Below are positions 20,018 through 43,260 of a stretch of DNA of 43,609 nucleotides, piece by piece. A program made the translations under genes and the position numbers. The stretch is from Candidatus Fibrimonas termitidis. Lineage in GTDB: Bacteria > Fibrobacterota > Fibrobacteria > Fibrobacterales > Fibrobacteraceae. The notes under the pieces are model-generated. The model did not search any database. It was not told where the DNA came from and was given only the letters and a program-made list of their open reading frames with translations. Positions within the stretch are counted from its first letter, which is position 1, and each line of letters opens with the position of its first letter. The stretch covers positions 468 to 44,076 of the forward strand of contig LIUG01000149.1 of assembly GCA_001462245.1 (NCBI GenBank). Direction: 5' to 3'.

Positions 20018-20046
20018 TTGACAAATTTTTTTAAATTTTCTATATT
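20018..20046 (+). promoter_or_regulatory. Promoter TTGACA-N17-TATATT of leader A
   Basis: -35 at 20018-20023, -10 at 20041-20046. Confidence 0.75.
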
Positions 20047-20057
20047 TATCCCTGATT

Positions 20058-20126
20058 ATGACTTTAAACAACAAAATAGTACCCTTTGGACACCTGTTCT
20101 GCATGAACAGCTTGTGTTGTTGTTGA
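20058..20126 (+). CDS. Cys-rich leader peptide A: MTLNNKIVPFGHLFCMNSLCCC
   Basis: Starts 11 nt after the -10 box with no SD. Homologous in position, start region and poly-Cys-stop ending to leaders B and C. Confidence 0.75.
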   Translation: MTLNNKIVPFGHLFCMNSLCCC

Positions 20127-20141
20127 ACATTTAAATTTTGT

Positions 20142-20174
20142 ATTTCCGTTAGCAGATAATATTTCTGCAGAAGT
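20142..20174 (+). promoter_or_regulatory. Stem-loop between leader A and first operon gene
   Basis: Outer ATTTC/GAAGT and inner GCAGA/TCTGC arms; same position as the hairpins of leaders B and C. Confidence 0.45.
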
Positions 20175-20198
20175 TCCATTTTAACAATGAGGTTTATT

Positions 20199-21254
20199 GT
20201 GTCTTATATGCAGCCGAAGATAATTTTTGTAGTTGATGATAGCTCGGTTAACTTGACCAGAGCAAAACAGGTTTTGGAAGACAGCTACCGTGTTTTAACA
20301 TTGCTTTCCGCCGCGAGAATGTTTGCGCTCCTTGAAAGAGTTACGCCGGATATCATTTTGCTCGATATTGAAATGCCGGAAATGGATGGCTTCACAGCCT
20401 TGCAAAAATTAAAGGAATCCGAAAAAACAAAGCACATTCCGGTAATATTTTTAACCGGATCCGGCGTAGAATCCATGGAAACGCGCGGTTTGGAATTGGG
20501 CGCGGTGGATTTTGTGTTAAAACCTTTTTCTGATTCTGCTCTCCTAAAGCGTATCTCGCACCATTTACATATAAAAAAGTTTATCTATAAACAAACTCTT
20601 TTGCTAAAAGAGAAAACCCGGCAGCTTGAGCAACTGAATTCCAGTATTATATCAATTGTAGCCGAATTGGTGGAAAATCGAGATAGACCAACAGGCAAGC
20701 ATATTGAGCGTTCAACAAAATACCTAAGGATATTGATTGAAGCCATGCTGGAACGCAAAGTTTATGCAAATGAATTGCTGAATTGGGATATAGAAGTTGC
20801 AATAGCCTCGGCTCAGTTGCACGATGTAGGCAAAATTGCCATTTCGGATTTAATTTTGAACAAACCCGCCCGGTTAACCAAAGAAGAATACGAACAGATA
20901 AAAACTCATGCGGCAACCGGTGAGCAAATTATTGACAGTATGATTATGCAAACCAATGGTTGTGTTTTTTTGCAAAATGCGAAATACTTTGCCGGCTATC
21001 ACCACGAACACTGGGATGGCTCCGGTTATCCATACGGATTAAAAGAAGACAATATTCCTTTGCAGGGGCGTATAATGGCTATTGTAGATGTTTATGATGC
21101 GCTTGTTTCGGAGAGAGTTTACAAACAGGCTCTGTCGCACGAAGAGGCTGTGAACATTATTATGTCTGAAAAAGGAAAGTACTTTGACCCCAAAATCGCA
21201 GATGTATTTTTTGAAATTCATAACAGTTTTCAATCCGAGGCAATGAGGTTGTAA
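20199..21254 (+). CDS. Response regulator with HD-GYP c-di-GMP phosphodiesterase domain
   Basis: Receiver domain FVVDDSSVN...ILLDIEMPEMDG; HDVGKI and HHEHWDGSGYP. GTG start proposed (gagg-tttatt-GTG). Confidence 0.85.
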   Translation: MSYMQPKIIFVVDDSSVNLTRAKQVLEDSYRVLTLLSAARMFALLERVTPDIILLDIEMPEMDGFTALQKLKESEKTKHIPVIFLTGSGVESMETRGLELGAVDFVLKPFSDSALLKRISHHLHIKKFIYKQTLLLKEKTRQLEQLNSSIISIVAELVENRDRPTGKHIERSTKYLRILIEAMLERKVYANELLNWDIEVAIASAQLHDVGKIAISDLILNKPARLTKEEYEQIKTHAATGEQIIDSMIMQTNGCVFLQNAKYFAGYHHEHWDGSGYPYGLKEDNIPLQGRIMAIVDVYDALVSERVYKQALSHEEAVNIIMSEKGKYFDPKIADVFFEIHNSFQSEAMRL

Positions 21255-21255
21255 T

Positions 21256-23250
21256 ATGAAAATTTATTATCACTACACCCACGGGGGCGGAGGCTCAAAA
21301 GATGCTATTAACGATTATGCTGCGGCTGTTGCCGAGTACAAAAAGACTTTTCCAAATAAAGAAGATGTAATTTCCTTCACTCCGGACCCAGCTGTAAAAG
21401 AAATGCTTATCAATATGCAGGAAAGCGGCATTGAAACAACATTTGACCGCTTTGATGCCCAAAAACCGCAATGCACATTTGGGATTGCAGGCGTGTGCTG
21501 CAAAAATTGCACAATGGGGCCTTGCAGAATAACAAAAAAGACATCCAGAGGCGTTTGCGGAGCAGATGCGGATACTATTGTTGCACGTAATTTGCTTAGG
21601 GCAATGGCTGCCGCTGTGTGCGGGCATGGCGCACGGGGAAGGGAAACCATGCTTGCTTTGAAATATGCCGGTGAAGGCAAATTGAATATGGAAATTGCAG
21701 GCAAAGACAAGGTTATAAAGACCGCTAAGGTTTTTGGGCTTGAAACCGAAGGGAAAACCATTAACGAACTTGCGGTTAAAATAGCCGATATCCTGCTTGA
21801 GGATTTGTCTAGAAGCGTTCCGGGCAAACATAAAACGCTTCACGCCTTTGCTCCTAAAGATAGAATTGAAACCTGGGAAAAGCACGATATTCTGCCGATT
21901 AGCGCATATCACGAAGCTTTTGAAGCTCTGCACAGAACAGGCACAGGCACTGATGGCGATTATGAAAATTTGCTAACTCAATATGAAAGATGCGGAGCCG
22001 CTTTTGCATGGTCAAGCGTTCTCGGCTCGTCTATCGCCAATGACAGCTTGTATGGACTGCCCGCAAGGAATACGCTTAAAGCAAATGTCGGCGCATTGGA
22101 AATGGGATATATCAATATTGCCGTGCACGGCCATTCCCCGCTTTTGGTGAAAGAAATAGTGAAGCAAGGCAGCAGCGAATATTTTATAAACTTGGCAATG
22201 GAGCGTGGTGCTTTGGGAATACGTTTTTACGGTATATGCTGCAGCGGTTTGTCTGCTATGTATAGGTATGGGAATGTAATCCCTCTTTCAAACGCTGTGG
22301 GCGCAGAGCTTGTGCTTGGTACCGGTGCGCTTGATTTGTGGGTTGCGGATATTCAGGATGTTTTTCCTTCCATTATGGATGTTGCCAAATGCTTTAAAAC
22401 GGTTGTTGTTACAACAAGCGATTCCGCAAGACTTAGAGGAGCGGAACATTATGGGCTTGCGCATGATCACTCAAATATCGGTGAAATTGAGGTGATAGCA
22501 AAAAAAATAATTGAAAGGGCAATAGAGAGTTTCCTGAACAGGCGTGATGTTCCCGTAAAAATACCCAAATACGAAATAGATGCCGAAATAGGTTTTTCTT
22601 TGGAATCCATCACAGAGTATTATGGCGGAATTTCAAATGTTGCGAATGCGCTCAAGGAAGGCGAGATAAAGGGAATTGTAAACCTTGTGGGGTGCAGCAA
22701 TCCACGGGTTATATATGAAAAGGCTGTTGTCGATGTTTGCGAAGAACTTATAAAAAATGATATTCTCGTGCTTACAAACGGTTGTGCTTCTTTTCCTCTT
22801 TTGAAATTGGGGTATTGCAATAAAAACGCATTGAAATTCGCAGGTTCGGGATTGAAAAAATTTTTGAAGAACGATTTGCCTCCGGTGTGGCATCTCGGCG
22901 AGTGCATTGATAACGCAAGGGCTTCTGCCATATTCAGAGCCTTGTCTAATGAACTCAGCACAGATATAAAAGATTTGCCTTTTGCATTTGCAAGCCCGGA
23001 ATGGTCAAATGAAAAAGGAATAGGGGCGGCACTTAGCTTCCGGCTCTTAGGCATAAACTCCTATCATTGCGTTTACCCGCCTATACAAGGCTCAGATAAT
23101 GTTATGAATTATATTTTTAACAAGTCTTCGGAAAAATTAGGTTCCAAAATGGTGGTTGAGGTTGACCACGCTAAATTGGCACAGAGAATTATATCGGACA
23201 TTACCGATAAAAGAAACTTTTTTCACTTCAACATAGGAGAGTTCCCATGA
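21256..23250 (+). CDS. cooS: Anaerobic Ni-Fe carbon monoxide dehydrogenase catalytic subunit
   Basis: PQCTFGIAGVCCKNCTMGPCRI, VHGHSPLL, GICCSG, LVGCSNPR, LTNGCASFPLLKLG, WHLGECIDNARA. Confidence 0.93.
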   Translation: MKIYYHYTHGGGGSKDAINDYAAAVAEYKKTFPNKEDVISFTPDPAVKEMLINMQESGIETTFDRFDAQKPQCTFGIAGVCCKNCTMGPCRITKKTSRGVCGADADTIVARNLLRAMAAAVCGHGARGRETMLALKYAGEGKLNMEIAGKDKVIKTAKVFGLETEGKTINELAVKIADILLEDLSRSVPGKHKTLHAFAPKDRIETWEKHDILPISAYHEAFEALHRTGTGTDGDYENLLTQYERCGAAFAWSSVLGSSIANDSLYGLPARNTLKANVGALEMGYINIAVHGHSPLLVKEIVKQGSSEYFINLAMERGALGIRFYGICCSGLSAMYRYGNVIPLSNAVGAELVLGTGALDLWVADIQDVFPSIMDVAKCFKTVVVTTSDSARLRGAEHYGLAHDHSNIGEIEVIAKKIIERAIESFLNRRDVPVKIPKYEIDAEIGFSLESITEYYGGISNVANALKEGEIKGIVNLVGCSNPRVIYEKAVVDVCEELIKNDILVLTNGCASFPLLKLGYCNKNALKFAGSGLKKFLKNDLPPVWHLGECIDNARASAIFRALSNELSTDIKDLPFAFASPEWSNEKGIGAALSFRLLGINSYHCVYPPIQGSDNVMNYIFNKSSEKLGSKMVVEVDHAKLAQRIISDITDKRNFFHFNIGEFP

Positions 23251-24188
23251 GCAACATTCATTTAAAAATGCTCGCAGCAATAGTAACAATAGCAACAGTT
23301 ATTTCTCTGTTTGCTTGCAAAGAAGAAGCCAAAAAGCAAGACACGGTTAAAATCGGATATCTGCCGATTACCCACGCCTTGCCGCTTCTTGTTGCAAGTG
23401 AATTGCAAAAGGAATTCTCCAGCGAGGTCAATATTGAGCTTGTAAAGTTCGGTTCTTGGACTGAGCTTATGGATGCTCTAAATACCGGCAGAATAGACGG
23501 GGCTTCCGTTTTGGTTCAGCTTGCGATGAGGTCTAAAGAACTCGGCATAGGATTAAAAGCCGTAGCACTCGGGCACACCGATGGAAATGTTGTGATATCT
23601 TCAAAAAAAATCAACTCAACTACCGACTTAAAAGGCAAAACGGTTGCCATACCTGCCAGGCAATCATCTCATTTTTTGCTGATAAACCAAATGCTTAAAG
23701 AAGCCGGCATGAGCATAAATGATATTAACATTGTAGAACTTCCTCCGCCGGAAATGCCTTCTGCGCTTGCTTCCGGGCAAATTGACGCTTATTGCGTTGC
23801 CGAACCATTCGGAGCGAGAGCCGTTGCATTGGGAGCTGGAAATGTTTTATATGAATCGGTGGCTTTATGGAACCATTCCTTATGCTGCGTGCTTGTTTTA
23901 ACCGATAAATTTATCAATGGCAAAAAAGATGCTGCCAAAAAACTCGTTGCGGTATATAAAACCGCCGGAAAATATATCGGCAAGAATAAAGACCGGGTAT
24001 ATGAACTCACGAAAAAATATTTCAATAATATAGCCAAGGAAGTTTTTGATATTTCAATGCGCTGGATTGAATATGATGAGTTGGAGATAACAAAAGAATA
24101 TTACGAAGATTTAACCATAAGGATGAAGGAAGCAAAGCTATCCGATAATCCTCCGAGTTTTAGCGCTTTTGTGGATAACAACTTATGA
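23247..24188 (+). CDS. ABC transporter substrate-binding lipoprotein (SsuA/TauA/NrtA-like)
   Basis: FACKEEAKK lipobox; KIGYLPITHALPLLVA; NMT1/ThiY-like fold pattern. Confidence 0.85.
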   Translation: MSNIHLKMLAAIVTIATVISLFACKEEAKKQDTVKIGYLPITHALPLLVASELQKEFSSEVNIELVKFGSWTELMDALNTGRIDGASVLVQLAMRSKELGIGLKAVALGHTDGNVVISSKKINSTTDLKGKTVAIPARQSSHFLLINQMLKEAGMSINDINIVELPPPEMPSALASGQIDAYCVAEPFGARAVALGAGNVLYESVALWNHSLCCVLVLTDKFINGKKDAAKKLVAVYKTAGKYIGKNKDRVYELTKKYFNNIAKEVFDISMRWIEYDELEITKEYYEDLTIRMKEAKLSDNPPSFSAFVDNNL

Positions 24189-24943
24189 AAAAAACACTCA
24201 GCGGTGCGGTAGGACTAATTGCTTTATTGACAATATGGCAACTTGCCGCATTAAAATACAATTCCGTGCTTTTTCCCGGCCCTTATGAGGTGATAAAAAG
24301 CTGGCTAGATCTATTTAAAGATGGTTCTATGACCGAGCATATAAAAACAAGTATGCTGAGATTTGCAATAGGATACATAGTTGCGGCGATATCCGGAATT
24401 GTGCTTGGGATGTTCTTTGGCTGGTTTAAAAAGTTATGGAATTTTTTTAATCCGGTAATACAGGTTATGCGTCCTATATCCCCAATTGCATGGATACCTT
24501 TTATTGTGCTATGGTTTGGGATAGGCGATATACCTGCCGTTGTGATTATTTTCCTCGCATCGTTTTACCCTGTATTGCTGTCCACAATAGCGGCAGTGGG
24601 GCGAGTAGATAAAATATACTTAAAGGTTGCGCAAAATTTTGCATTGACCAGATTTGAAACCCTCACAAAAATAGTTTTGCCGGCATCGTTCCCGCAAATT
24701 TCCACAGGGCTTCATCAGGCGATAGGCACAGGATGGGTATTCCTTGTAGCCGGCGAAATGATAGGTTCTCAATCGGGGCTTGGTTTTTTGATTATTGATT
24801 CAAGAAATAATCTAAGACCGGATTGGCTGCTTGCTGCTATACTCACCATAGGCATCATAGGTTTGCTTTTGGACGAATTGATTAAATGGATTGAAAAGCA
24901 GATATATATTAAATGGGGTGCCACGGAAAAACACGAGGGATAG
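24185..24943 (+). CDS. ABC transporter permease (SsuC/TauC family)
   Basis: FPGPYEVIKSWLDL, RPISPIAWIPFIVLWFGIG, GTGWVFLVAGEMIG. Confidence 0.9.
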   Translation: MKKTLSGAVGLIALLTIWQLAALKYNSVLFPGPYEVIKSWLDLFKDGSMTEHIKTSMLRFAIGYIVAAISGIVLGMFFGWFKKLWNFFNPVIQVMRPISPIAWIPFIVLWFGIGDIPAVVIIFLASFYPVLLSTIAAVGRVDKIYLKVAQNFALTRFETLTKIVLPASFPQISTGLHQAIGTGWVFLVAGEMIGSQSGLGFLIIDSRNNLRPDWLLAAILTIGIIGLLLDELIKWIEKQIYIKWGATEKHEG

Positions 24944-24945
24944 AT

Positions 24946-25716
24946 ATGTACATTGAAGTGAAAAATGTTTCAAAGGATTTTAAGCAGCACGGGCAAATAT
25001 TCAAAGCGCTGAGCGATGTATCATTAGATATAAGCAAGGGCGAATTTCTCTGCTTGCTAGGCCCAAGCGGATGCGGCAAAACAACTCTGCTTAACGCCAT
25101 TGCGGGCTTTGACAAAATTTCGTCCGGAAGCGTAAAAATTGACGGGCAAGAGGTAAAAGGGCCAAGCGCAAGGAACACAACTCTTTTTCAAAACTACGGC
25201 CTTCTTCCGTGGCGCACTGTTCAGAGCAATGTAGAACTTGGGCTTGAAAGCAGAAAACTCGCCAAAATTGAGATGCATGAAATCTCCGACAAATACATAA
25301 ACCTTGTAGGGCTTGATGCTTTCAAAAAGAACTATCCCCATCAATTATCGGGCGGTATGCAACAGCGTGTTGCAATCGCAAGAGCACTTGCCGTTGACCC
25401 GGAAATACTCTTTATGGACGAGCCTTTCGGCGCATTGGATGTTATCACAAGAGCCAATATGCAAGACGAGATAACACGTATATGGCAAGAATACAAGAAA
25501 ACCATCATATTTGTCACTCATGATATTGAAGAGGCGGTATATTTAGCGGATAGGATAGTAATCATGGCACCCAACCCCGGAAGGATTAAGGCTGTTATAA
25601 AAGTAAGTCTGGGAAGAGGGCGAGATAGAGATGTAAAGGAGTTTTTCAACATAAGAGATAATATTCTTGATATTTTTGAAATGAAAAATCATGATGCAAT
25701 TGAATATTTTTTATGA
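24946..25716 (+). CDS. ABC transporter ATPase (SsuB/TauB family)
   Basis: [38 protein letters not shown]; start re-set to ATG 24946. Confidence 0.92.
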   Translation: MYIEVKNVSKDFKQHGQIFKALSDVSLDISKGEFLCLLGPSGCGKTTLLNAIAGFDKISSGSVKIDGQEVKGPSARNTTLFQNYGLLPWRTVQSNVELGLESRKLAKIEMHEISDKYINLVGLDAFKKNYPHQLSGGMQQRVAIARALAVDPEILFMDEPFGALDVITRANMQDEITRIWQEYKKTIIFVTHDIEEAVYLADRIVIMAPNPGRIKAVIKVSLGRGRDRDVKEFFNIRDNILDIFEMKNHDAIEYFL

Positions 25717-25742
25717 TTTTAAAATTTTTTCCATTTTTACCC

Positions 25743-25770
25743 TTGACAAAGTTTTTAAAATTTCTATATT
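25743..25770 (+). promoter_or_regulatory. Promoter TTGACA-N16-TATATT of leader B
   Basis: -35 at 25743-25748, -10 at 25765-25770. Confidence 0.75.
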
Positions 25771-25781
25771 TGATGCTGATT

Positions 25782-25865
25782 ATGACTTTGAGCAACAAAA
25801 CATTATTCTCTAAACATCTGTGCTGTCGAGTGTTCTCCAGCAACAGGCTGTGTTGTTGTTGCTAA
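25782..25865 (+). CDS. Cys-rich leader peptide B: MTLSNKTLFSKHLCCRVFSSNRLCCCC
   Basis: Starts 11 nt after the -10 box. Differs from leader C largely at synonymous third positions plus one in-frame Cys codon. Lies upstream of an operon ending in cysK. Confidence 0.85.
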   Translation: MTLSNKTLFSKHLCCRVFSSNRLCCCC

Positions 25866-25884: not shown

Positions 25885-25918
25885 TATTTCACGGTGTGCT
25901 TCGCACCATAAAAGAAGT
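25885..25918 (+). promoter_or_regulatory. Stem-loop in leader B 5' UTR
   Basis: GGTGTG-CTT-CGCACC with outer ATTTC/GAAGT; 33 nt identical to the leader C 5' UTR. Confidence 0.6.
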
Positions 25919-25954: not shown

Positions 25955-27196
25955 ATGAAAAAAGTATCTCTTGATACGTACGCTGTCCATAAGGGACTCG
26001 TTTCTCTCACCGCTCTGCTAATCGGGGCTTCAGCTGCATTGGCAGAAGACATTCCTGTTGTAAATGTAGGCGGAACAAAAATCTCCCTATACGGATTTTT
26101 GCAAGCAAACGCCGTTTATGAAGACGGTGCTAATGGTAACGTAAATTGGTCGGAAAAGGTTCCGTCAAGAGCTGAAGACGGTGAAGGCCGTTTTGCGCTT
26201 AATGTGAACCAAACAAGAATCGGTTTCAATCTATCCGGACCTTCCGGAGAAGCAACAGAAGTAGCCGGAAAATTTGAATCCGACTTTGCAAACGATAATG
26301 AACGCAGATCTAATGGAGTTAGCAACTTCCGCATAAGGCAATCTTATGGACAGGTGAAATTCAAAGATGTCGGCTTAACCATACTCTTTGGCCAAACCGG
26401 TGATTTGATAGCTCCTCTGACTGCGCCCACTATCAATCAGGGAGGCTTGAAACATCAGGGTTCTATCGGCACTCGCCGTCCGCAGATCCGCTTGACTCAA
26501 GGCATTGGGCCGGTTGAAATAGCCGTTGCAGCCACAGATGACCGTGCAAACCAGCCTGTTTTGCCGGGCTTTCAAGGTTCTTTAAAAGGAAAAATCCCTG
26601 CAGTCTGGGCTGGAGAAAAACAGAACGTAGAGATTATCCTTAGCGGGCACTATGCATCGGAAGAATCCGCCGCAGACGACACAACGGGAGTAAAAGCGAA
26701 GAAAGAAGATGATTGGGGAACACCGTCTTCTTGGTCTGGTGTTGCAAGTTTGTCTTTGCCTGTGATTAGCATCATAAACCTTTCCGGAGAAGTTTTCTAC
26801 GGACAAAATCTTAACCGTTATAGCAACGGAAGCATAGGTTTAAGCGGCACGGCAACTGGCGGCAAAAAAGACGAGGGGATACAGTCACTAGGTGGCTGGG
26901 GCGCAGCAACCGTAAAACTTCCACTGGGTTTCTCTATCGCCGGCGGCATAGGCCTTGAAGCCATTGATGAAAATCGCGAATTAAAAACCAGCGATCCTAA
27001 AAAACCAAATCCGAACAAGAATACGGTAATATTCACAAATCTGAGATACAATGTTGGAGAGACAGCATTTATCGGTTTTGAATATGCGAATTTGAAAACG
27101 GATTATGCGGATTTGATAACTGGCGAAAAACCGGAAAAAGTTGATAGCGGCAAGCTAAATCGCTTTGAACTGGTTTTCAACTATGCTTTTAAATAA
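25955..27196 (+). CDS. Outer-membrane porin (DcaP-like)
   Basis: Signal peptide; ISLYGFLQANAVYED; FALNVNQTRIGF; C-terminal RFELVFNYAFK beta-signal. Confidence 0.75.
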   Translation: MKKVSLDTYAVHKGLVSLTALLIGASAALAEDIPVVNVGGTKISLYGFLQANAVYEDGANGNVNWSEKVPSRAEDGEGRFALNVNQTRIGFNLSGPSGEATEVAGKFESDFANDNERRSNGVSNFRIRQSYGQVKFKDVGLTILFGQTGDLIAPLTAPTINQGGLKHQGSIGTRRPQIRLTQGIGPVEIAVAATDDRANQPVLPGFQGSLKGKIPAVWAGEKQNVEIILSGHYASEESAADDTTGVKAKKEDDWGTPSSWSGVASLSLPVISIINLSGEVFYGQNLNRYSNGSIGLSGTATGGKKDEGIQSLGGWGAATVKLPLGFSIAGGIGLEAIDENRELKTSDPKKPNPNKNTVIFTNLRYNVGETAFIGFEYANLKTDYADLITGEKPEKVDSGKLNRFELVFNYAFK

Positions 27197-27228
27197 CCGG
27201 AGAAGAACCACAAACCAAGGAGGTCAAT

Positions 27229-28203
27229 ATGACTGTATTCTCTAAGAAGCGCGCATCAGGTTGCGCAAAAATCACCGCCCTCATTCTGCTCTCGCTCTTC
27301 GCGCTAGGCTGCAAAGAAGAGAAAGCGAAAACAGAAGCGGCAGCAGTGCGGACTAAGATTGTAGTGGCAGATGCAAAAACCACTCACCATCTGAACCTTT
27401 ACGTAGCCAGAGAACTCGGATTGTTCGATAAATACAATCTGGACGTAGAAATCAAATGGGTGGATGACAATGCGGCGGCTCGCGACCTTGTAGTTTCCGG
27501 CGGTGCGGATGTATTCTGGAGCTGCCCGACCGTGGCTATCGCAGCCATCGCAAACGGCGCCCCTATAAAAACCATCGCGCAGGTAAAAACACCTTGCACA
27601 AGCGTGCTATTGGTTCCGCAAGACTCCCCAATTTCCAAACTTGAGGACCTAAAAGACAAGGAAATCGCCGGTATTTCGCCAACTTGCGAAGCGGTTATTT
27701 CCCTGACTTCTGCGGCAAAAAAAGCAGGTGCCAAATTTAACCTTCAGCGTTTGGCAGGCGGCCCCGCAATCACCGCTCTAAAAGGCGGCTCGGTTGACGG
27801 CGCAATACTGGAAGAACCGCAAGCCAGCATCGCCGAACTCGATGGTTATAAAGTGCTGTTCAGAGAAGTATCTGAGAATATCCCGTGCCGCACCATCAAT
27901 GCGAGCGACAGGGTTTTGGCATCCAATGCCGAGGGACTCAAAAACCTCATCAAAGCCATTGACGAAGCCAACAAGATAATTCTCTCCAACCCCAAGGCGG
28001 ATAATATCGTGAAAATCGCCGCAGATTACACAGGTGCGCCGGTGGAAGCGATTATCCATGGCAATGACAGGCTGAAATTCGGAATTGCTATCAAAGTAGA
28101 TGGCTTAAATTTACTGGCCGACGAATTGCTAGCTAACGGCAACATCAAGGAAAAACCCGGTAACGCTATGTTTGCCGCCGAATTCAAGGGTATCACATGG
28201 TAA
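27229..28203 (+). CDS. ABC transporter substrate-binding lipoprotein 1
   Basis: LFALGCKEEK lipobox; THHLNLYVARELGLFDKYNLDVEIKWVDD. Confidence 0.85.
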   Translation: MTVFSKKRASGCAKITALILLSLFALGCKEEKAKTEAAAVRTKIVVADAKTTHHLNLYVARELGLFDKYNLDVEIKWVDDNAAARDLVVSGGADVFWSCPTVAIAAIANGAPIKTIAQVKTPCTSVLLVPQDSPISKLEDLKDKEIAGISPTCEAVISLTSAAKKAGAKFNLQRLAGGPAITALKGGSVDGAILEEPQASIAELDGYKVLFREVSENIPCRTINASDRVLASNAEGLKNLIKAIDEANKIILSNPKADNIVKIAADYTGAPVEAIIHGNDRLKFGIAIKVDGLNLLADELLANGNIKEKPGNAMFAAEFKGITW

Positions 28204-29084
28204 AGAAAACGCTCCTTGCCTTGCTTCTTTTGCTCCTGCTTGTTTTAATAACCTGCGAGAAGAAGAAGCGCAATGCGCTCAGAGTTGGGCATAGCGGCGG
28301 CTATCTCTCTGCCGCCCTTTACGCTGCGCAAGATAGTTTGGTAAATGTTGATATTCAGCATTTTAACTCAACTTCGGACATAGCTTATACGCTGCTTTTG
28401 GGCGCATTGGACGCAGGGTTTGTGGAAGCCGAAAAGCTGGCTGCTTTTGCAGAACTGGACGGCTTTGACCAACTCACTGTTGTAGGCAAGGTGACATATC
28501 CTTATGGCGCAACCCTTATTCTGCGAAAGGGCTTGAATGTCCGTTTGCAGGAACTCGGCGGGCTTACTATAGCCGTATCGGAACCGACCTGCGTGTTGCT
28601 GGACACTTTTTCAAGTGATGCCAAGCGGCTGGGTGCGGATATATCCAATGTGAAATATAAGTACATGGTATTTCACGCCATGCTGCCCGCTTTGGAGTCG
28701 GGCGATGTGGATGCGGCAATAATCAAGGGTACCTACGCTGTAGCAGCTTTGCAAGCCGGCCATTCCATTCTATATCAGAACTGGGAAGTGCAACCAGGCG
28801 ACGAGTGCTGCCCTGCGATTTTAGACCAGGCTGCTCTTGTATTGCTCTCACGTCGCGAAAAGCTGGAAGCGGTAAAGCCCTTTATAAATGCGCTTGTATT
28901 TGCGCAAAAGTCTCCTCCAGACCAATTGCGCCAATCAGTCGCAGAGCATTCGGTAATTCCGTTTGAGATGCTGCGAGGGCAACCCGTGCCGGAATTTTCT
29001 CTTGAAAGTGACAAACTGCTTGAAACTTTCATTAAGCATAAACATGAAGACGGTGACCATGATGATCATGACCACCACGATTAA
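28197..29084 (+). CDS. ABC transporter substrate-binding lipoprotein 2 with His-rich C-terminal tail
   Basis: LVLITCEKKK lipobox; C-terminus KHKHEDGDHDDHDHHD. Confidence 0.8.
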   Translation: MVKKTLLALLLLLLLVLITCEKKKRNALRVGHSGGYLSAALYAAQDSLVNVDIQHFNSTSDIAYTLLLGALDAGFVEAEKLAAFAELDGFDQLTVVGKVTYPYGATLILRKGLNVRLQELGGLTIAVSEPTCVLLDTFSSDAKRLGADISNVKYKYMVFHAMLPALESGDVDAAIIKGTYAVAALQAGHSILYQNWEVQPGDECCPAILDQAALVLLSRREKLEAVKPFINALVFAQKSPPDQLRQSVAEHSVIPFEMLRGQPVPEFSLESDKLLETFIKHKHEDGDHDDHDHHD

Positions 29085-29099
29085 CGGATTGAGGTTAAA

Positions 29100-29948
29100 A
29101 TGGCAATGAACAAAAACAAATACGAAGTAAAAGGCGCACGCAGCACTTTCCGGCTGGTGTTGCGTGAACTCGGCTATTTTTTTAAAGGAGCCGCCTTGAA
29201 TATATTCTCGCCGGAATTCCTCGTGGTGTTTATCCCTTTGCTTGGGCTTTGGGAAGCCTTGCCGCGCCTCGGTGCAGTGCCACGAACATTGGTGCCGCCG
29301 CCCAGCGACGTGGCTATGGCTTTTTGGGAAATGCTCACCGTGCGCAATTTTTTGGGAGATGTTGCAAGCAGTATGCTCAAATTCTTTATGGGGCTGGGAA
29401 TTGCTATCATAGCCGCCATTCCAATCGGGGTGCTTATGGGCTGGAATATCGCCGTGAGAAAACGCACTCTGCCGCTGTTCCAGCTTTTATCTCCCATACC
29501 ACCGCCCGCATGGGTTCCCATCACGATAATCCTCTTCGGAATAGGCCTCCCCATGCAAACATTTCTGATTTTTCTAGGGGCTTTCTACCCGATTTTGTTC
29601 AATACCTACCAAGCGGTCAAAGACACCGACCCCAGGTACCTTTCCAGCGCAAGGGTGTTCGGGGCAAGCGAGCTTACGCTCATTTTGCATGTATATTTTT
29701 GGCACGCCATCGGAGCTATTATCATGAGCGTAAAAACAGGCGTAGCTATGGGGCTTGTGATGCTCGTTATTGCGGAAATGTACGGCGGGCGAACAGGCAT
29801 TGGCTATGTGCTCAACGAAGCCAAGGACTATTTTCAAATTTCGAGAATGGTGGTGTGCATGGTAACGCTTGGTGTAATTGGCTGGTTTTTGATTGAGGTG
29901 TTGAAATTTGTTGAATTGAAACTTGCCGTATGGAAGGGGGTGCGTTAA
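29100..29948 (+). CDS. ABC transporter permease (SsuC-like)
   Basis: VPPPSDVAMAFWEML, PIPPPAWVPITIILFGIG, MGLVMLVIAEMYGG. Confidence 0.9.
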   Translation: MAMNKNKYEVKGARSTFRLVLRELGYFFKGAALNIFSPEFLVVFIPLLGLWEALPRLGAVPRTLVPPPSDVAMAFWEMLTVRNFLGDVASSMLKFFMGLGIAIIAAIPIGVLMGWNIAVRKRTLPLFQLLSPIPPPAWVPITIILFGIGLPMQTFLIFLGAFYPILFNTYQAVKDTDPRYLSSARVFGASELTLILHVYFWHAIGAIIMSVKTGVAMGLVMLVIAEMYGGRTGIGYVLNEAKDYFQISRMVVCMVTLGVIGWFLIEVLKFVELKLAVWKGVR

Positions 29949-30821
29949 ATGATTGAAGCTCGCAATGTAAGCAAATTCTTTTCCGTTGTGAATGAAGACC
30001 GCACCGCAGACGGCATCACCGCCGTGCTTTCGGTATCGCTCACCGTGGAAGACGGAAAAATCCTAAGCCTTTTAGGTCCCTCCGGGTGCGGAAAATCCAC
30101 ATTTTTAGAAATTTTGGGCGGTTTACAAGCTCCCACCGAAGGCAGCGTTTATATCGATGGCGTGCAGGTATTGGAACCTCTGCCGTCCACTCGCAAAGAG
30201 ATGGACGACTATCGCCGCAAATATAAATTTCTATCGCCGCTCGCAAACAGCATGTTCAAAAACCGCCCAAAACACGACATCGCTATGATTTTTCAGGATT
30301 ACGCTGTATTTCCGTGGATGACCGTGCTTCAAAATGTTGTGTTTGCGCTGAAACTCCGCGACATTCCACGCCGGGAGCGTGAAGCCAAGGCTATGATATA
30401 CCTGAAAAAAACAGGGCTTGCCGACTCTCTGAGCAAATATCCGGCACAGCTTTCGGGTGGAATGCGGCAGAGGCTGGCTCTTGCCCGTGCGCTGGCGGTG
30501 GATCCCCGCATTATCCTTATGGACGAGCCTTTTGCCGCCGTGGATATGCTCACCCGTGAACGCCTGCAAGACGACCTTCTGCGTTTGTGGAACGAAACGG
30601 GTATCACCATTATACTTGTAACCCACGACATCAATGAGGCTTTGTATCTCTCGGATGAAATTGTTGTGTTTTCCGCCAACCCCGGCTCAATACGCAATCG
30701 TTTTCCCATTGAAACGCCACGCCCTCGCAGGCGCAGCGATCCGGATCTCTTGGTGCTTGGGCAACGCATAGAAGCGCTTTTCAAATATGACATCAACCAT
30801 GAAAGTGAGTACTCAATATGA
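29949..30821 (+). CDS. ABC transporter ATPase (SsuB-like)
   Basis: [38 protein letters not shown]. Confidence 0.92.
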
Positions 30822-31765
30822 CTGCATTTCGTTCAAAGGTGTATGATACCATCACCGAAGTAATAGGAGCAACGCCGTTGGTGCGTTTGCCGAAAATCAG
30901 CACTGGCCTTCCGGGAATTTTGCTCGGCAAGCTGGAATACTTTAACCCGGCCGGCAGCGTAAAATGCCGCATAGGCGCAGCAATGCTTGCGGCGGCACAG
31001 CGGGAGGGCAAACTCAAACCCGGCGGCGTGGTTATAGAACCAACCAGCGGCAACACGGGCATTGGGCTTGCCTTTGCCTGCGCAGCGCAAGGCTATAAGC
31101 TGATACTAACGATGCCGGAGACCATGTCTCTGGAGAGGCGCAAATTGGCACGAATGCTCGGAGCCGGTCTTGTTTTGACTCCCGGCAACGAGGGCATGGT
31201 GGGTGCTATAAAAAAAGCAAAAGAACTCAGAGCGCAAATAGCCGATAGCTTTATGCCCTTGCAGTTCGAGAACCCAGCCAATCCGCAAATTCACCGTGAA
31301 ACCACGGCAGAGGAAATCTGGCAAGACACAGACAGATCGGTGGATATTTTTGTAGCCGGCGTAGGCACGGGCGGCACCATTACCGGTGTGGGCGAGGTGC
31401 TCAAAGAGCGCAAGCCAACCGTGAAAATAATTGCGGTAGAGCCGGATGCCTCCCCAGTGCTTTCGGGCGGCAGAGCCGGCCCGCATCGCATACAGGGCAT
31501 CGGCGCGGGTTTTGTCCCAAAAATCCTGAACCGCTCCATAATAGACGAAATCGTCCGTGTAACCAACGAGGATGCCTTTGACACAGCCAAAAGATTGGGC
31601 CGTGAAGAAGGCATACTTGCGGGTATATCCTCAGGAGCGGCGGTTTGGGCGGCATTGCAACTGGCATCCAAGGCGGAGAACGCCGGCAAAATCATAGTGG
31701 CGATGCTGCCGGATTCGGGGGAAAGGTATCTTTCTACGCAGCTTTCGGATACATCGGAGGGTTAG
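30818..31765 (+). CDS. cysK: Cysteine synthase A
   Basis: [61 protein letters not shown]. Confidence 0.95.
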
Positions 31766-33257: not shown

Positions 33258-34118
33258 GTGACTGCCATAGTTTTGGGTAATTTTGACGGTTGTCATTTGG
33301 GGCATAAAGCCTTGTTTGAGGCATTGAAGTCAGAAGCAAAAAGAAATGAGATGCCGCATCTCGCAATATCTTTTGAACCGCACACAAGGCATTTAATTCA
33401 AGAACCCGGGCATCCGGAACTTTTAACCTTGGATGAAGAGAAAAGAGATTTTATGGAACATTGCGGAGTTCCTCTTGTTTTGCAAAAATTTGACAAGGAT
33501 TTATTCGCAATGCCATTTCGCTCTTTTGTGGAGGAGTTTGCCGTAAAAAAATATGGCGCAAAACTTTGGGTACTTGGTTTGGACCAAAGGTTTGGACGAG
33601 GCGGCAAAGGCAGCGCAGAATCTCTAAAAACATTCTTTCCAAATTTATCCATCTACGAAATAAATCCGGTTTTATTCGATGGCGAAGCGATTAGCTCTTC
33701 TCGCATACGAGAGTCTCTTAAAAGCGGAAACTTGGATTTGGCAAATGCAATGCTCGGGCGAGATTATTCGCTTTGCGGAATTGTGGAACACGGTTTGGGA
33801 CAGGGAAAGCAGCTCGGTTTTCCAACTGCGAATCTGAGTTTTGCGCCATATAAACTTTTGCCTAAAAACGGCGTATATTCCGGGACTGCATTTTTTGACG
33901 GGCAAAAACATAATGCGGTAATCAACATAGGCTGCCGCCCATCGCTTGGCAATAGACCCGTTGGCTTGGAAGCGCATTTGCTCAATTTTGACGGAGATTT
34001 ATACGGCAAAAAATTATCCGTAGAACTCGGCAAACGGCTTAGAGATGAGATTAAATTTGAAAGCATAGACGCATTGAAAGAGCAAATAAAAAAGGATATT
34101 TCCCTAATATTTATTTGA
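33258..34118 (+). CDS. ribF: Bifunctional riboflavin kinase / FAD synthetase
   Basis: VLGNFDGCHLGHKAL, SSSRIRESL, GFPTANL, PKNGVYSG; GTG start. Confidence 0.93.
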   Translation: MTAIVLGNFDGCHLGHKALFEALKSEAKRNEMPHLAISFEPHTRHLIQEPGHPELLTLDEEKRDFMEHCGVPLVLQKFDKDLFAMPFRSFVEEFAVKKYGAKLWVLGLDQRFGRGGKGSAESLKTFFPNLSIYEINPVLFDGEAISSSRIRESLKSGNLDLANAMLGRDYSLCGIVEHGLGQGKQLGFPTANLSFAPYKLLPKNGVYSGTAFFDGQKHNAVINIGCRPSLGNRPVGLEAHLLNFDGDLYGKKLSVELGKRLRDEIKFESIDALKEQIKKDISLIFI

Positions 34119-34415
34119 ATCTAGGCTGTTGGTTGTAATTGTTTGAACGCTTGAGTCCGGTTTTGTCACAGTCCAGTGCAAGAGCGTGCCGTCCTTACGC
34201 ACAGTCATCCTTCCGCCCAAGCCTCCCATATCCTCGCCGAGAAAAAGCGCTATTGCCTCTGCCGGGCATTCCTTGACGCAAGAAGCACACCCCCAGCAAC
34301 GTTCCGGATGCAAAATAACAGCCTTGCCTTCTTTCAATTTGATTAAACTTCCGGGGCAAATTTTTGTACATCTACTGCAACCAGTGCATTTTTCATGCCG
34401 CATTTCAATGCTCAT
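34104..34415 (-). CDS. AprB-like 4Fe-4S ferredoxin subunit
   Basis: CTGCSRCTKICPGSLI and CWGCASCVKECPAEAI; overlaps the AprA-like gene. Confidence 0.8.
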   Translation of the reverse strand: MSIEMRHEKCTGCSRCTKICPGSLIKLKEGKAVILHPERCWGCASCVKECPAEAIALFLGEDMGGLGGRMTVRKDGTLLHWTVTKPDSSVQTITTNSLDSNKY

Positions 34416-36015
34416 AAATTTCTCCCTCCCGAACCAAGGGGCGCAGAACAATCTTTATTTCACCGTTTTCCAACCGAGAGTTGATATAATATTCCGTTTC
34501 TTTTCCGACGGACAGATGAGCAATCAGCGACCTGCACAAAGTAAGGCGTTCTTTGAGTTCCAATACATATACGAGTTCCTGCATATCCGCAGCTGAGATG
34601 AGTTCGGAGCGAGCTTCCAATTCCCGGATTTTTTCGTCCGCAATTTTTAACGAAGTTTCCGAAAAACGGTAAGAGGTGCTTATTCCTCCGGCGTGTTCGT
34701 CCATTACCGCTTGCATTTCTTCTTCCAAATCATTTATAGTAAATGCTGATTTATTAGCTTGGGTATAGGGTATGGGGTTTGGGGTATAGGGTATGGGGTT
34801 TGGGGTATAGGGTATGGGGTTGGGGGTATAGGGTTCATCTATGTATTTTAGCGCTGCTTTTGCTGCGATTTCCCCTTCAACCAAAGCTCCGGTCACATAT
34901 TTTTGCGGGCAGCCTCCCGCTGCATCCCCTGCTGCAAATAGGCCGCGCACGGTTGTTTCTCGGTTTGTACTTACCCAATATCCCGCGGCAGTGTGGCCGC
35001 CTGTGATATAAGGTTCGGTTCCCTCAATTTCAACATTTTGCACGCTTGGCCCTTTGCCGCTTTCTAACCAGCGCAAACTCTGGCTTGGAGCCATATTTAA
35101 GTAAGCTTTCACCAAATCCGTTTCCTGCTCTTTTGTAATTCCTGCAGTTTGCAGATAACAGGGGCCTCGTCCGCTCAAATTTTCCATCACCGTTCCATGC
35201 AGGCGTTGAGAGGTTGTAAGGCCGTATAGGGTTTCATAAACTTCCCCGGCTGAATTTATTTGCTTTGCCCCAACTCCCTGTGCCAAAGTTCCCGTAGGAG
35301 CAATGGTATCTTTGCATCTCAAAGCGATAAAACGCATTTCCAAAGTGGTCATTTCCGCACCCGCGCGAATACCCATTGCAAGCCCCGCTCCGGTGTTGAA
35401 AGGCGGATACCATAACTTGTGCCGGGAAAAGCCAGGGTGGTTCGGTTTATACAGCCCCGAAGCACCTCCGGTAGCGCATAACACAGCTTTAGCAGAAATA
35501 ACATAAAGCACAGGTTCGTCAATAGATATTGCATAAGCACCGAGAATACGGTTGTCCTTAACGATATATTCAAATACATTCACCCGGTTTAGCACGGTGA
35601 TATTCTCCCGTGCCGAGACCGCTTTGGCTAAAATAGGTTTAATGTTCTCCCCGTTGATTTTGATATTGCGCCAGCCACGTGTGACATATTGCCCCTGCTC
35701 ATTTTTCAAAATGGTAAGCCCAAGTGCTTCTAATTTTTCGGCAGCACGGTTAAGCCCCTCCGCCATAGTCAACAGGAGGTCGCCACGCACACTGCCATCC
35801 GCATCGGCACGAGCGTAATCCACATAATCCTGCGGCGTTTTACCCGGCCCTATATAGGCATTGAGAGCGTTAACCCCGGCAGCAAGGCAACCGCTTCGCT
35901 TGATATCGGCTTTTTCAGCGATTAAAACACGAGCATCCGAATTCAGCGCAGCCCAACATCCCGCTGTGCCGCCGCCTATAATCAGAAAATCCGTATCAAT
36001 ACGCCGCAAATCCAC
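34405..36015 (-). CDS. AprA-like (adenylylsulfate reductase alpha-type) FAD flavoprotein
   Basis: TDFLIIGGGTAGCWAAL FAD motif; GRGPCYLQT, GGHTAAGYWVSTNRETTVRGLFAAGDAAGGCPQKYVTGALVEG. Confidence 0.75.
   Translation of the reverse strand: MDLRRIDTDFLIIGGGTAGCWAALNSDARVLIAEKADIKRSGCLAAGVNALNAYIGPGKTPQDYVDYARADADGSVRGDLLLTMAEGLNRAAEKLEALGLTILKNEQGQYVTRGWRNIKINGENIKPILAKAVSARENITVLNRVNVFEYIVKDNRILGAYAISIDEPVLYVISAKAVLCATGGASGLYKPNHPGFSRHKLWYPPFNTGAGLAMGIRAGAEMTTLEMRFIALRCKDTIAPTGTLAQGVGAKQINSAGEVYETLYGLTTSQRLHGTVMENLSGRGPCYLQTAGITKEQETDLVKAYLNMAPSQSLRWLESGKGPSVQNVEIEGTEPYITGGHTAAGYWVSTNRETTVRGLFAAGDAAGGCPQKYVTGALVEGEIAAKAALKYIDEPYTPNPIPYTPNPIPYTPNPIPYTQANKSAFTINDLEEEMQAVMDEHAGGISTSYRFSETSLKIADEKIRELEARSELISAADMQELVYVLELKERLTLCRSLIAHLSVGKETEYYINSRLENGEIKIVLRPLVREGEIYEH
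34761..34834 (+). repeat. 21-nt coding minisatellite, about 3.5 copies, G-rich on + strand
   Basis: gggtatagggtatggggtttg repeated; encodes (IPYTPNP)n in the AprA-like protein. Confidence 0.95.
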
Positions 36016-36017
36016 CC

Positions 36018-36806
36018 TTAAATTCCTTGCTTAATGTCGTTTATGGACTCATACAAATGTTTCTTTTGCTTTAACAAGGGCCTGTTCACATCGCTGAGAA
36101 AGTCGGTGACAAACGGGTTTGCCGGATTATCGCATACCTCTATCGGGCTTCCCATCTGTTCGATTTTCCCTTTGTTCACAATGACTATAGAATCCGAGAC
36201 TTCAAGAGCCTCATCCTGATCGTGTGTTACAAAAATACTGGTGACGTGAATTTCATCATGCAAACGGCGAAGCCAGTTTCGCAGTTCCTTGCGGACTTTT
36301 GCATCAAGAGCACCGAAAGGTTCATCGAGCAGCAATACGGTGGGTTCCACGGCAAGCGCTCTAGCAAGCGCAACTCGCTGCCTTTGCCCGCCGGAAAGTT
36401 CCGATGGGAAGCGATTCACAAAATTCTCCAGTTGAACAAGGGAAACAAGACGCATTACATTTTCATGTATAGTCTTTTTGTCCGGGCGTATTTTTCGTGG
36501 GCGAACACGAAGCCCAAAAGCGATGTTTTCAAACACGTTCATGTGCCTGAAAAGGGCGTAATGCTGAAAGACAAAGCCAACTTTCCTGTCTTTCACCTGT
36601 TTTTTGGTCAAATCTTCCCCAAAAAACTTTATTACGCCGGTATCTGGAGTTTCCAAACCCGCTATAATCCGGAGTAGCGTAGTTTTGCCACAGCCGGAAG
36701 GCCCCAACAAGGCGATGATATCCCCTTTGGGAATATTGATGCTGATGTTGTCCAAGGCAACAAAGTTGCCGAACTTTTTGCTGACGTTTGCTATTTCAAC
36801 GTTCAT
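36018..36806 (-). CDS. cysA: Sulfate-type ABC transporter ATPase (CysA-like)
   Basis: [88 protein letters not shown]. Confidence 0.85.
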
Positions 36807-36830: not shown

Positions 36831-36863
36831 CTTCTTTTATGGTGCGAAGCACACCGTGAAATA
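36831..36863 (-). promoter_or_regulatory. Stem-loop in leader C 5' UTR (33 nt identical to 25885-25917)
   Basis: Reverse strand tatttcacggtgtgcttcgcaccataaaagaag. Confidence 0.6.
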
Positions 36864-36881: not shown

Positions 36882-36962
36882 TTAGCAACAACACAGTCTG
36901 TTGCTGGAGAATACTCGACAGCATAGGTGTTTAGAGAATGATATTTTGTTGCTCAAAGCCAT
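36882..36962 (-). CDS. Cys-rich leader peptide C: MALSNKISFSKHLCCRVFSSNRLCCC
   Basis: Starts 11 nt after the -10 box; lies upstream of the CysA/AprA/AprB-like operon. Confidence 0.85.
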   Translation of the reverse strand: MALSNKISFSKHLCCRVFSSNRLCCC

Positions 36963-36973
36963 AATCGGACTTA

Positions 36974-37002
36974 AATATAGAAAAATAAAGAAACCTTGTC
37001 AA
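36974..37002 (-). promoter_or_regulatory. Promoter TTGACA-N17-TATATT of leader C
   Basis: Reverse strand: -35 at 37002-36997, -10 at 36979-36974. Confidence 0.75.
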
Positions 37003-42162: not shown

Positions 42163-43260
42163 ATGGCAAAGTTTGAAATTTTTATCTCGTATAGGCGTAA
42201 AGGGGGGTTTGATACAGCTAAATTGCTTTACGACAGGCTGAGGCTTGATGGGTATTCCATTTCTTTTGATATAGATACTTTGGAAAAAGGGAATTTTGAC
42301 GATGAATTGGAAAGCAGGGTAAAAGAATGCAAGGATTTTTTATTAGTATTGAGTCCGGGAATTTTCGATAGGTTTTTTGATTCTGAATACGACCCTAAGG
42401 ATGACTGGGTTAGACGAGAAATATCCTGTGCGCTTGAGGAAAATAAAAACATAATTCCGCTTTTTCTCGATGGATTTGATTTCCCTAAGCAACCCTTGCC
42501 CCAAGACGTTAAAGACATAACCAGAAAAAACGGCATAGACCTTAACCCCAAGCATTTTGAGTCTGCATATGCAGGTTTAAAGCGAAAATTTTTGATTTCA
42601 CAGCCGCGCTGGACAACCAAGCATAAAAAGAAAATTATTGCAGCCTTTTCTTTGGCGTTTTTAGCAATTGCCGCTTGTTTATCTTTTGTAATAAATAAAA
42701 ATATATCCGATAGGGAAGAAGGATTTAGACGAGTAACCGATTCTATAGCCGTAGAAAAGCAAAGAATAGCCGATTCTATAGCCACAGAGAAGCAGCGAAT
42801 AATAGATTCCATAACAATGATAAAGAAACCCGTAACGGAACCGGCACCACCGGCACCATCGCCATCACCGAAACCATCGAAACCACAGCCTGTGAGTCCC
42901 GTAACAAGCAAATCTTTTCATTGCGCAAGCTCCGGTGATAAGCTTGTTAATATAATTTGTGAAAAATTAGCTCCTGCCGGGGTTAAAAAAACAGAATGTT
43001 CCGGCAACGGCGTAAAAATAAATGTAATCCCCAAAAAGGCAGGTTGCAGACAAGATCAGTTGGGTAAAGTGACTTGCTCTTATTCCCCGAAATTAAAATT
43101 CACGGATTGCAATGGAGCTTCGGTATCTCCTGATTTGGAAAGATCCAAAATAGAATCGGAAGGAACTGATGAGAATAAAGTAAAGAAAGAAATAGAAAAA
43201 ATGTTAGAAGAAGCTAATTTTAGCCAATGGGTTTCAAAAATAAAAAGCATGCAAAAATAA
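42163..43260 (+). CDS. TIR-domain protein with a TM segment, heptad-like repeats, Pro-rich linker and Cys-containing C-terminus
   Basis: KFEIFISYRRKGGFDTAKLLYDRL...DDELESRVKECKDFLLVLSPGIF; TM KIIAAFSLAFLAIAACLSFVI; repeat (A)DSIAxEKQRI. Confidence 0.85.
   Translation: MAKFEIFISYRRKGGFDTAKLLYDRLRLDGYSISFDIDTLEKGNFDDELESRVKECKDFLLVLSPGIFDRFFDSEYDPKDDWVRREISCALEENKNIIPLFLDGFDFPKQPLPQDVKDITRKNGIDLNPKHFESAYAGLKRKFLISQPRWTTKHKKKIIAAFSLAFLAIAACLSFVINKNISDREEGFRRVTDSIAVEKQRIADSIATEKQRIIDSITMIKKPVTEPAPPAPSPSPKPSKPQPVSPVTSKSFHCASSGDKLVNIICEKLAPAGVKKTECSGNGVKINVIPKKAGCRQDQLGKVTCSYSPKLKFTDCNGASVSPDLERSKIESEGTDENKVKKEIEKMLEEANFSQWVSKIKSMQK

Follow-up and report, generated by a model that had tools for sequence, protein, structure and literature searches.

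Why should an operon that encodes a carbon monoxide dehydrogenase (CODH) begin with a short open reading frame ending in consecutive cysteine codons? This arrangement occurs in the window, by which we mean the whole stretch of 43,609 nucleotides from Candidatus Fibrimonas termitidis that was analyzed. We consider it probable that the reading frame, leader 1, is a cysteine sensor that acts by Cys-stall attenuation and governs a sulfur-acquisition operon of a clade-B Ni-CODH and a NitT/TauT-family importer, to which an HD-GYP gene was recently added.

Leader 1 lies on the forward strand behind a TTGACA-17-TATATT promoter at 20018–20046 (TTGACA at 20018–20023, TATATT at 20041–20046). Its reading frame, MTLNNKIVPFGHLFCMNSLCCC, spans 20058–20126, with the ATG at 20058, 11 nt after TATATT, three consecutive TGT cysteine codons at 20115–20123 and the stop codon at 20124–20126; a predicted hairpin, CUGUUC-UGCAU-GAACAG, at 20094–20110 stands immediately 5′ of the cysteine run (fold z=-2.97 against synonymous recoding). 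Two relatives are found elsewhere in the window: leader 2 at 25742–25865 on the forward strand (promoter included; reading frame 25782–25865, MTLSNKTLFSKHLCCRVFSSNRLCCCC) and leader 3 at 36882–37002 on the reverse strand (promoter included; reading frame 36962–36882, MALSNKISFSKHLCCRVFSSNRLCCC). An nhmmer model trained on 12 leaders from two other genomes only, and then run on the window, recovered all three with E=5.2e-34, 3.5e-32 and, for leader 1, 6e-24; the next-best match in the window was promoter only (E=0.001), and leader 1 without its promoter gave E=7.9e-14 with a model of the reading frame only. Since a model from other genomes picks out exactly these three places, we regard the leaders as real and not as chance occurrences. 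The poly-Cys leader described here by a first-pass annotation, with its promoter and 11-nt spacing, is thus present, and the annotation's count of three is correct for the window; the genome as a whole carries seven. Occurrences of TGTTGTTGTTGA elsewhere in the genome were rejected as further copies, as they fall within other sequences. An Rfam scan of the window gave no match.

The leaders form a family of about 28 members in three related Fibrobacterota genomes of one genus, with 7 in the window genome, 12 in the sister genome G005 and 9 in G010. The family was delimited by searching 113 genomes of the order with a sequence model, full-length matches being those with E below about 1e-14; all weaker matches (E above 1e-7) share the promoter and have little or no leader, with the exception of one truncated copy in G005, so that the two sets are well separated. 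Nearly all members have the TTGACA-17-TATATT promoter, an ATG 10–11 nt past the -10 box, and cysteine codons at the end of the reading frame. This spacing leaves no room for a Shine-Dalgarno site between the -10 box and the ATG, which suggests that the leader mRNAs are probably leaderless. Class I leaders (M[TA]LSNK...HLCCRVFSSNRLCCC) are near-identical copies, and class II leaders, including leader 1, are more varied (MIFGNK...HLF...N.LC.CC). All in all, the leaders average 4.2 cysteines in 27 residues, compared with 1.2% cysteine in the window genes, and they use TGT and TGC in a ratio of 86:31 against 11:60 in the window genes (Fisher p=3e-15). A preference for TGT, the codon that the window genes avoid, would be expected of a stall sensor. 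A hairpin, GGUGNGC-UUCGCACC-AUAA, comes after roughly one leader in two, and in the window genome this pattern is found only behind leaders (three places at up to 1 mismatch); in the window it lies at 25893–25911 on the forward strand behind leader 2 (GGTGTGCTTCGCACCATAA) and at 36837–36855 on the reverse strand behind leader 3.

Several members depart from this layout or stand in unusual surroundings. Leaders before cysM have lost the cysteine run in two genomes, where they end NWLCI (L148, L157), and have kept it in the third. In G005:C22 (L154), a stop after MTLSN truncates the leader, and cysD lies directly downstream. At a further locus (L053), three class II leaders occur within 17 kb, with downstream genes that resemble, by eye from the sequence, corrinoid/uroporphyrinogen-decarboxylase-like methyltransferases, a 2-oxoacid oxidoreductase and a substrate-binding protein. 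CCC-type matches in other Fibrobacter genomes (MRVSIKLCLLTYVWLCCC...) were rejected as leaders, being lipoprotein-like N-termini.

The genes behind the leaders point to sulfur. Most of the approximately 28 leaders in the three genomes precede sulfur or cysteine genes, and the leaders are short reading frames with contiguous cysteine codons near the stop that come first in their operons, as is typical of mycobacterial-type polycysteine attenuators. The sets that they head include Sbp-CysT-CysW, CysD/CysN, MetY, CysM with a JAB protein and MoeZ, a sulfite reductase with ThiF and a JAB-type protein, a CysA-like and an AprA-like protein with a ferredoxin-like protein, SsuA-like transporters with CysK, and cooS with SsuABC-like genes. 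In the window, leader 2 precedes operon 2 (25955–31765, forward strand), which encodes a 413-amino-acid protein that belongs to no known family, two SsuA-like proteins, a permease, an ATPase and CysK; leader 3 precedes operon 3 (34104–36806, reverse strand), which encodes the CysA-like ATPase, the AprA-like flavoprotein and the ferredoxin-like protein. Only three SsuA-family genes were found in the window genome, and all of them lie behind leaders. In all three genomes, a Cys leader precedes CysK, a family-2A encapsulin shell, its cysteine-desulfurase cargo and CysE (L147, L149, L158), which suggests that this compartment responds to cysteine supply. Sensor genes also occur behind leaders (L153, L155, L156; partly identified by eye): a chemoreceptor-like and a sensor kinase-like gene in G005:C9, a response regulator with an HD-GYP domain (RR-HD-GYP) and a downstream 779-amino-acid protein in G010:C65, and a further case in G010:C68. 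Signaling genes may have been recruited to the same Cys-leader control. Further features adjoin the window's sulfur operons or lie in them: a tandem 21-nt G-rich repeat in the AprA-like gene region (34761–34834), and genes for a TIR-domain protein (42163–43260) and for a C10-family peptidase that carries a Spi-type inhibitor domain (37041–39983).

The operon behind leader 1 is on the forward strand throughout. Its first gene, for a response regulator with an HD-GYP domain (20199–21254), most likely starts at the GTG at 20199 and not at the ATG at 20187, judging from a ribosome-binding site, GAGG (20189–20192), which together with this GTG spans 20189–20201. It is followed by cooS (21256–23250), a NitT/TauT-type substrate-binding protein (23247–24188), an SsuC/TauC-type ABC permease (24185–24943) and an SsuB/TauB-type ABC ATPase (24913–25716, the start of which may lie further in). 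The first-pass annotation had placed the HD-GYP gene, cooS and the SsuABC-like transporter in one cysteine regulon and had suggested looking for the leader before cooS in related genomes. That search bore fruit in G005, where a leader stands directly upstream of the orthologous cooS, with 92% identity to that of the window, with no HD-GYP gene between them (MIFGNKITSLKHLFPRNGLCMCCTNP; L063/L159). The third cooS in the genus, in G014 (68% identity), has no leader, and the G014 genome has no full-length match to the leader family; the conservation case therefore rests on two related genomes. A run of regular repeats near this leader-less cooS (L160, 9899–11935; NWFHFSKFRIVRN on translation) is likely a CRISPR array. 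Among the cooS loci searched outside Fibrobacterota, no poly-Cys leader was seen before cooS.

As to the proposed regulon itself, cooS and the transporter do sit behind a member of a family whose other members are mostly found ahead of sulfur or cysteine genes. Conservation does not extend to the HD-GYP gene, although G010 has a leader before a different RR-HD-GYP gene. The string GAGGTTTATTGTGTC begins cooS in G005 and begins the HD-GYP gene in the window genome; DNA similarity between the two genomes starts only near the cooS start; and the RR-HD-GYP family is multicopy: each genome of the genus has 5–12 matches, and a paralogue at another site in the window genome is 74% identical. Because of these three observations, the HD-GYP gene appears to have been inserted recently, as a lineage-specific event, into a leader-cooS-ABC operon that was already in place, and its membership of the shared regulon looks like a local feature.

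What kind of CODH does this operon encode? Clade-B Ni-CODHs are marked by Asp or Glu at the second C-cluster cysteine, a type II D-cluster and neighboring NitT/TauT ABC genes (PMC6344411), and as of 2026 they were functionally unassignable (PMC13056359). The window CooS scores 510 bits against TIGR01702 (cut-off 478), and alignment with solved CODHs shows that the B- and D-cluster cysteines and the catalytic His and Lys are kept (the latter two aligned with 6t7j). The idea that all C-cluster ligands are present was rejected, as the second cysteine is Asp (IQDVFP; ADIQDVFPSIMDVAKC). Asp or Glu occupies this position in 60 of 60 homologues (55 Asp and 2 Glu by pattern, 3 Asp by eye). The protein also has a type II (CX7C) D-cluster, CTFGIAGVC, and its gene adjoins NitT/TauT ABC genes. 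By these marks, the window CooS is a Ni-CODH of clade-B type. In a tree, the nearest companions of the window and G005 proteins are those of termite-gut Bacteroidales; G014 joins next, followed by Acetivibrio and Methanosarcina, to which the genera named for group B-1 are close (PMC6344411). A His-rich N-terminus, the mark of group B-1, is seen to varying degrees: the first 60 residues hold 2 His in the window, 5 in the sister genome and up to 32 elsewhere.

The gene context of cooS beyond Fibrobacterota provides the strongest new point of this analysis: in several lineages, clade-B CODHs lie in sulfur-gene surroundings under predicted cysteine or SAM control. A SAM riboswitch with an intrinsic terminator lies directly 5′ of cooS in two Clostridium genomes, before cooS alone in one (L073) and before cooS-ABC in the other (L183), and the two CooS proteins fall on different branches in the tree. 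At 13 of 62 loci, a few of the 62 being duplicates, cooS has a gene for MetY, CysK, a cystathionine-synthase-like protein or PatB within about 6 kb. Some of these sets are operon-like (metY-cysK-SBP-permease-ATPase-cooS at L094; ABC-cooS-metY-cysK at L088). By lineage, there are metY/cysK beside cooS-ABC in Lachnospiraceae, CGS-like and PatB genes upstream of cooS in Acetivibrio, ABC genes followed by cysK in Ruminobacter, and, in another Clostridium, a divergent CGS-like gene beside cooS and behind a T-box. The loci within Lachnospiraceae are not mutually independent, and about five separate lineages are represented besides Fibrobacterota. Since most of the cooS loci searched contain no Rfam sulfur RNA element, and most lack a sulfur gene within about 6 kb, the link is recurrent and not universal. 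The first-pass annotation had noted the connection between CO dehydrogenase and sulfur status as one it did not know from the literature; by gene context across phyla, this CODH type indeed appears tied to sulfur amino acids. Near cooS-ABC in Butyrivibrio and Eubacterium (L096, L102) there are also nitrogenase-like D/K or H genes, possibly encoding sulfur-related reductases.

We propose that RNA polymerase would start a few bases 5′ of the leader ATG, and that the ribosome would load on the 5′-terminal AUG. With plentiful Cys-tRNA(Cys), it would pass the cysteine codons and leave, and the downstream genes would be poorly expressed; under cysteine shortage, it would halt at the consecutive TGT codons, and the operon would be expressed more strongly. 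By inspection of the 28 leader regions, there is no intrinsic terminator (a G+C hairpin with a T run) between leader and first gene of the kind that a classical transcription attenuator has; coupling would be Rho-dependent or translational. Constrained folding showed no consistent opening of the downstream ribosome-binding site by a ribosome stalled on the cysteine codons, and pairing of the poly-Cys tract with ribosome-binding-site regions was not above that in 75 controls (KS p=0.71). Hairpins similar to that of leader 1 occur in several sister leaders, and hairpin strength within the reading frames is weak on average against synonymous recoding (z=-0.66); because the hairpin register varies among leaders, we do not claim covariation. 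On balance, a ribosome that stalls at the Cys codons, with attenuation through Rho or at the level of translation, is most likely, a scheme that has been proposed or demonstrated for the polycysteine leaders of mycobacteria. Downstream, CooS with its altered C-cluster and the importer may jointly help to provide the sulfur from which cysteine and methionine are made; the HD-GYP gene would have joined the operon recently in the window lineage. More tentatively, clade-B Ni-CODHs and their NitT/TauT importer might be sulfur scavengers: they would free sulfide from some sulfur compound, perhaps through reduction of a COS-like thiocarbonyl, and pass it to CysK/MetY, with cysteine- or SAM-responsive RNA elements controlling them in several phyla.

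The main rival to a sulfur role is nickel import. The substrate-binding protein has S. aureus 3UN6 as its nearest structure (Foldseek E=4e-33, 37% identity), which was solved with zinc bound and which may be the CymR-regulated TauA of that species. The window's substrate-binding protein can be termed only SsuA-like because it scores 155.5 bits against the SsuA family TIGR01728, below the curated cut-off of 163.5. As 3UN6 binds metal, Inoue et al. (2019) proposed that the transporter imports nickel for CooS maturation (PMC6344411), and the leader could then be present through Fe-S assembly limited by cysteine shortage or through another indirect cause. His43, His110, Cys213 and Cys214, which are invariant in the family, could bind metal, and most CooS homologues have His-rich N-termini. 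However, nickel import leaves the Cys leader, the SAM riboswitches and the metY/cysK neighbors unexplained, two Clostridium cooS clusters also carry a separate CbiM-type Ni/Co transporter, and in S. aureus a TauA-type transporter operon is a member of the cysteine regulon of CymR, with sulfide repressing its expression (PMC5480029). We therefore hold nickel import to be unlikely, though the most serious competitor. A CooS that merely oxidizes CO, delivering low-potential electrons for sulfate or sulfite reduction during cysteine shortage without acting on sulfur compounds, would fit a leader regulon that includes sulfite reductase and AprA-like genes; it is less probable again, given that clade B lacks the second C-cluster cysteine, that no ferredoxin or CooF gene adjoins the window cooS and that the importer would be unexplained.

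Two further explanations concern the leader itself. Because class I leaders are near-identical copies, the element has evidently spread by duplication, and leader 1 could be a passenger of a duplicated promoter with no regulatory meaning for cooS, a view that the insertion of an HD-GYP gene behind it would also fit. We judge this quite improbable, since the peptide and promoter frame have been kept before cooS in two genomes despite much greater divergence in the leader than in CooS, and since the SAM riboswitches at cooS elsewhere are independent of it. The least probable of the alternatives, to which we give very little credence, is that the product is a functional Cys-rich peptide acting in trans as a metal or persulfide ligand: its pattern (N-K...HL...CCC) is conserved, but the middle and end vary widely (LCMCC, LCICC, LCCCC), the reading frame is always first in its operon, and a cysteine run beside the stop codon fits stalling.

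Cysteine-stall control of a sulfur-acquisition operon thus remains our preferred explanation. The presence of the leader before cooS, as before cysteine and sulfur-uptake genes, suggests that this orphan CODH branch may help microbes to obtain sulfur, and if CooS does release sulfide, the CODH scaffold would have gained a function not seen in it before. Published clade-B Ni-CODHs with NitT/TauT ABC genes (PMC6344411, PMC13056359) share the gene order and the Asp/Glu at the second C-cluster cysteine; their function is given there as unknown or nickel-related, and a link to sulfur was not found in these accounts of the clade. Taken across several lineages, regulatory elements and gene neighborhoods now indicate a part in sulfur supply and make the question of clade-B function testable. 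Among known leaders, the classical Cys attenuator of other Fibrobacterales (genus g5; Fibrobacter-type genomes G077, G095 and G098, loci L058, L059 and L062) is likewise a leader with Cys codons, in this case ahead of cysK and a cystathionine-synthase-like gene, but it is Shine-Dalgarno-led, has a strong intrinsic terminator and encodes a different peptide (MTQSLMNMCCCCWGRCRTGD). Candidate Cys leader peptides of Actinobacteria (PMC1262725) also have a cysteine run near the stop and no conserved terminator, and Rho was suggested for them, whereas they precede single cys/cbs operons. There is also a parallel with the mycobacterial polycysteine leaderless short reading frames (Canestrari et al. 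2020, doi 10.1111/mmi.14498, as cited in PMC9031893 and PMC13236596), which, as portrayed in the citing papers, share contiguous cysteine codons, several copies each before a cysteine or sulfur operon, and the lack of an intrinsic terminator; the leaderless start would be a further likeness, being probable for the Fibrobacterota leaders. The Fibrobacterota leaders belong to another phylum and masking of the ribosome-binding site finds no support in them; the likeness is one of proposed mode of action and does not imply relatedness. Set against that same account, the putative Fibrobacterota regulon is distinguished by a clade-B CODH, an encapsulin, chemotaxis/sensor genes and HD-GYP genes, and it would extend the multi-operon cysteine 'ribulon' beyond mycobacteria to sulfate assimilation, a cysteine-desulfurase encapsulin and sensor genes in Fibrobacterota.
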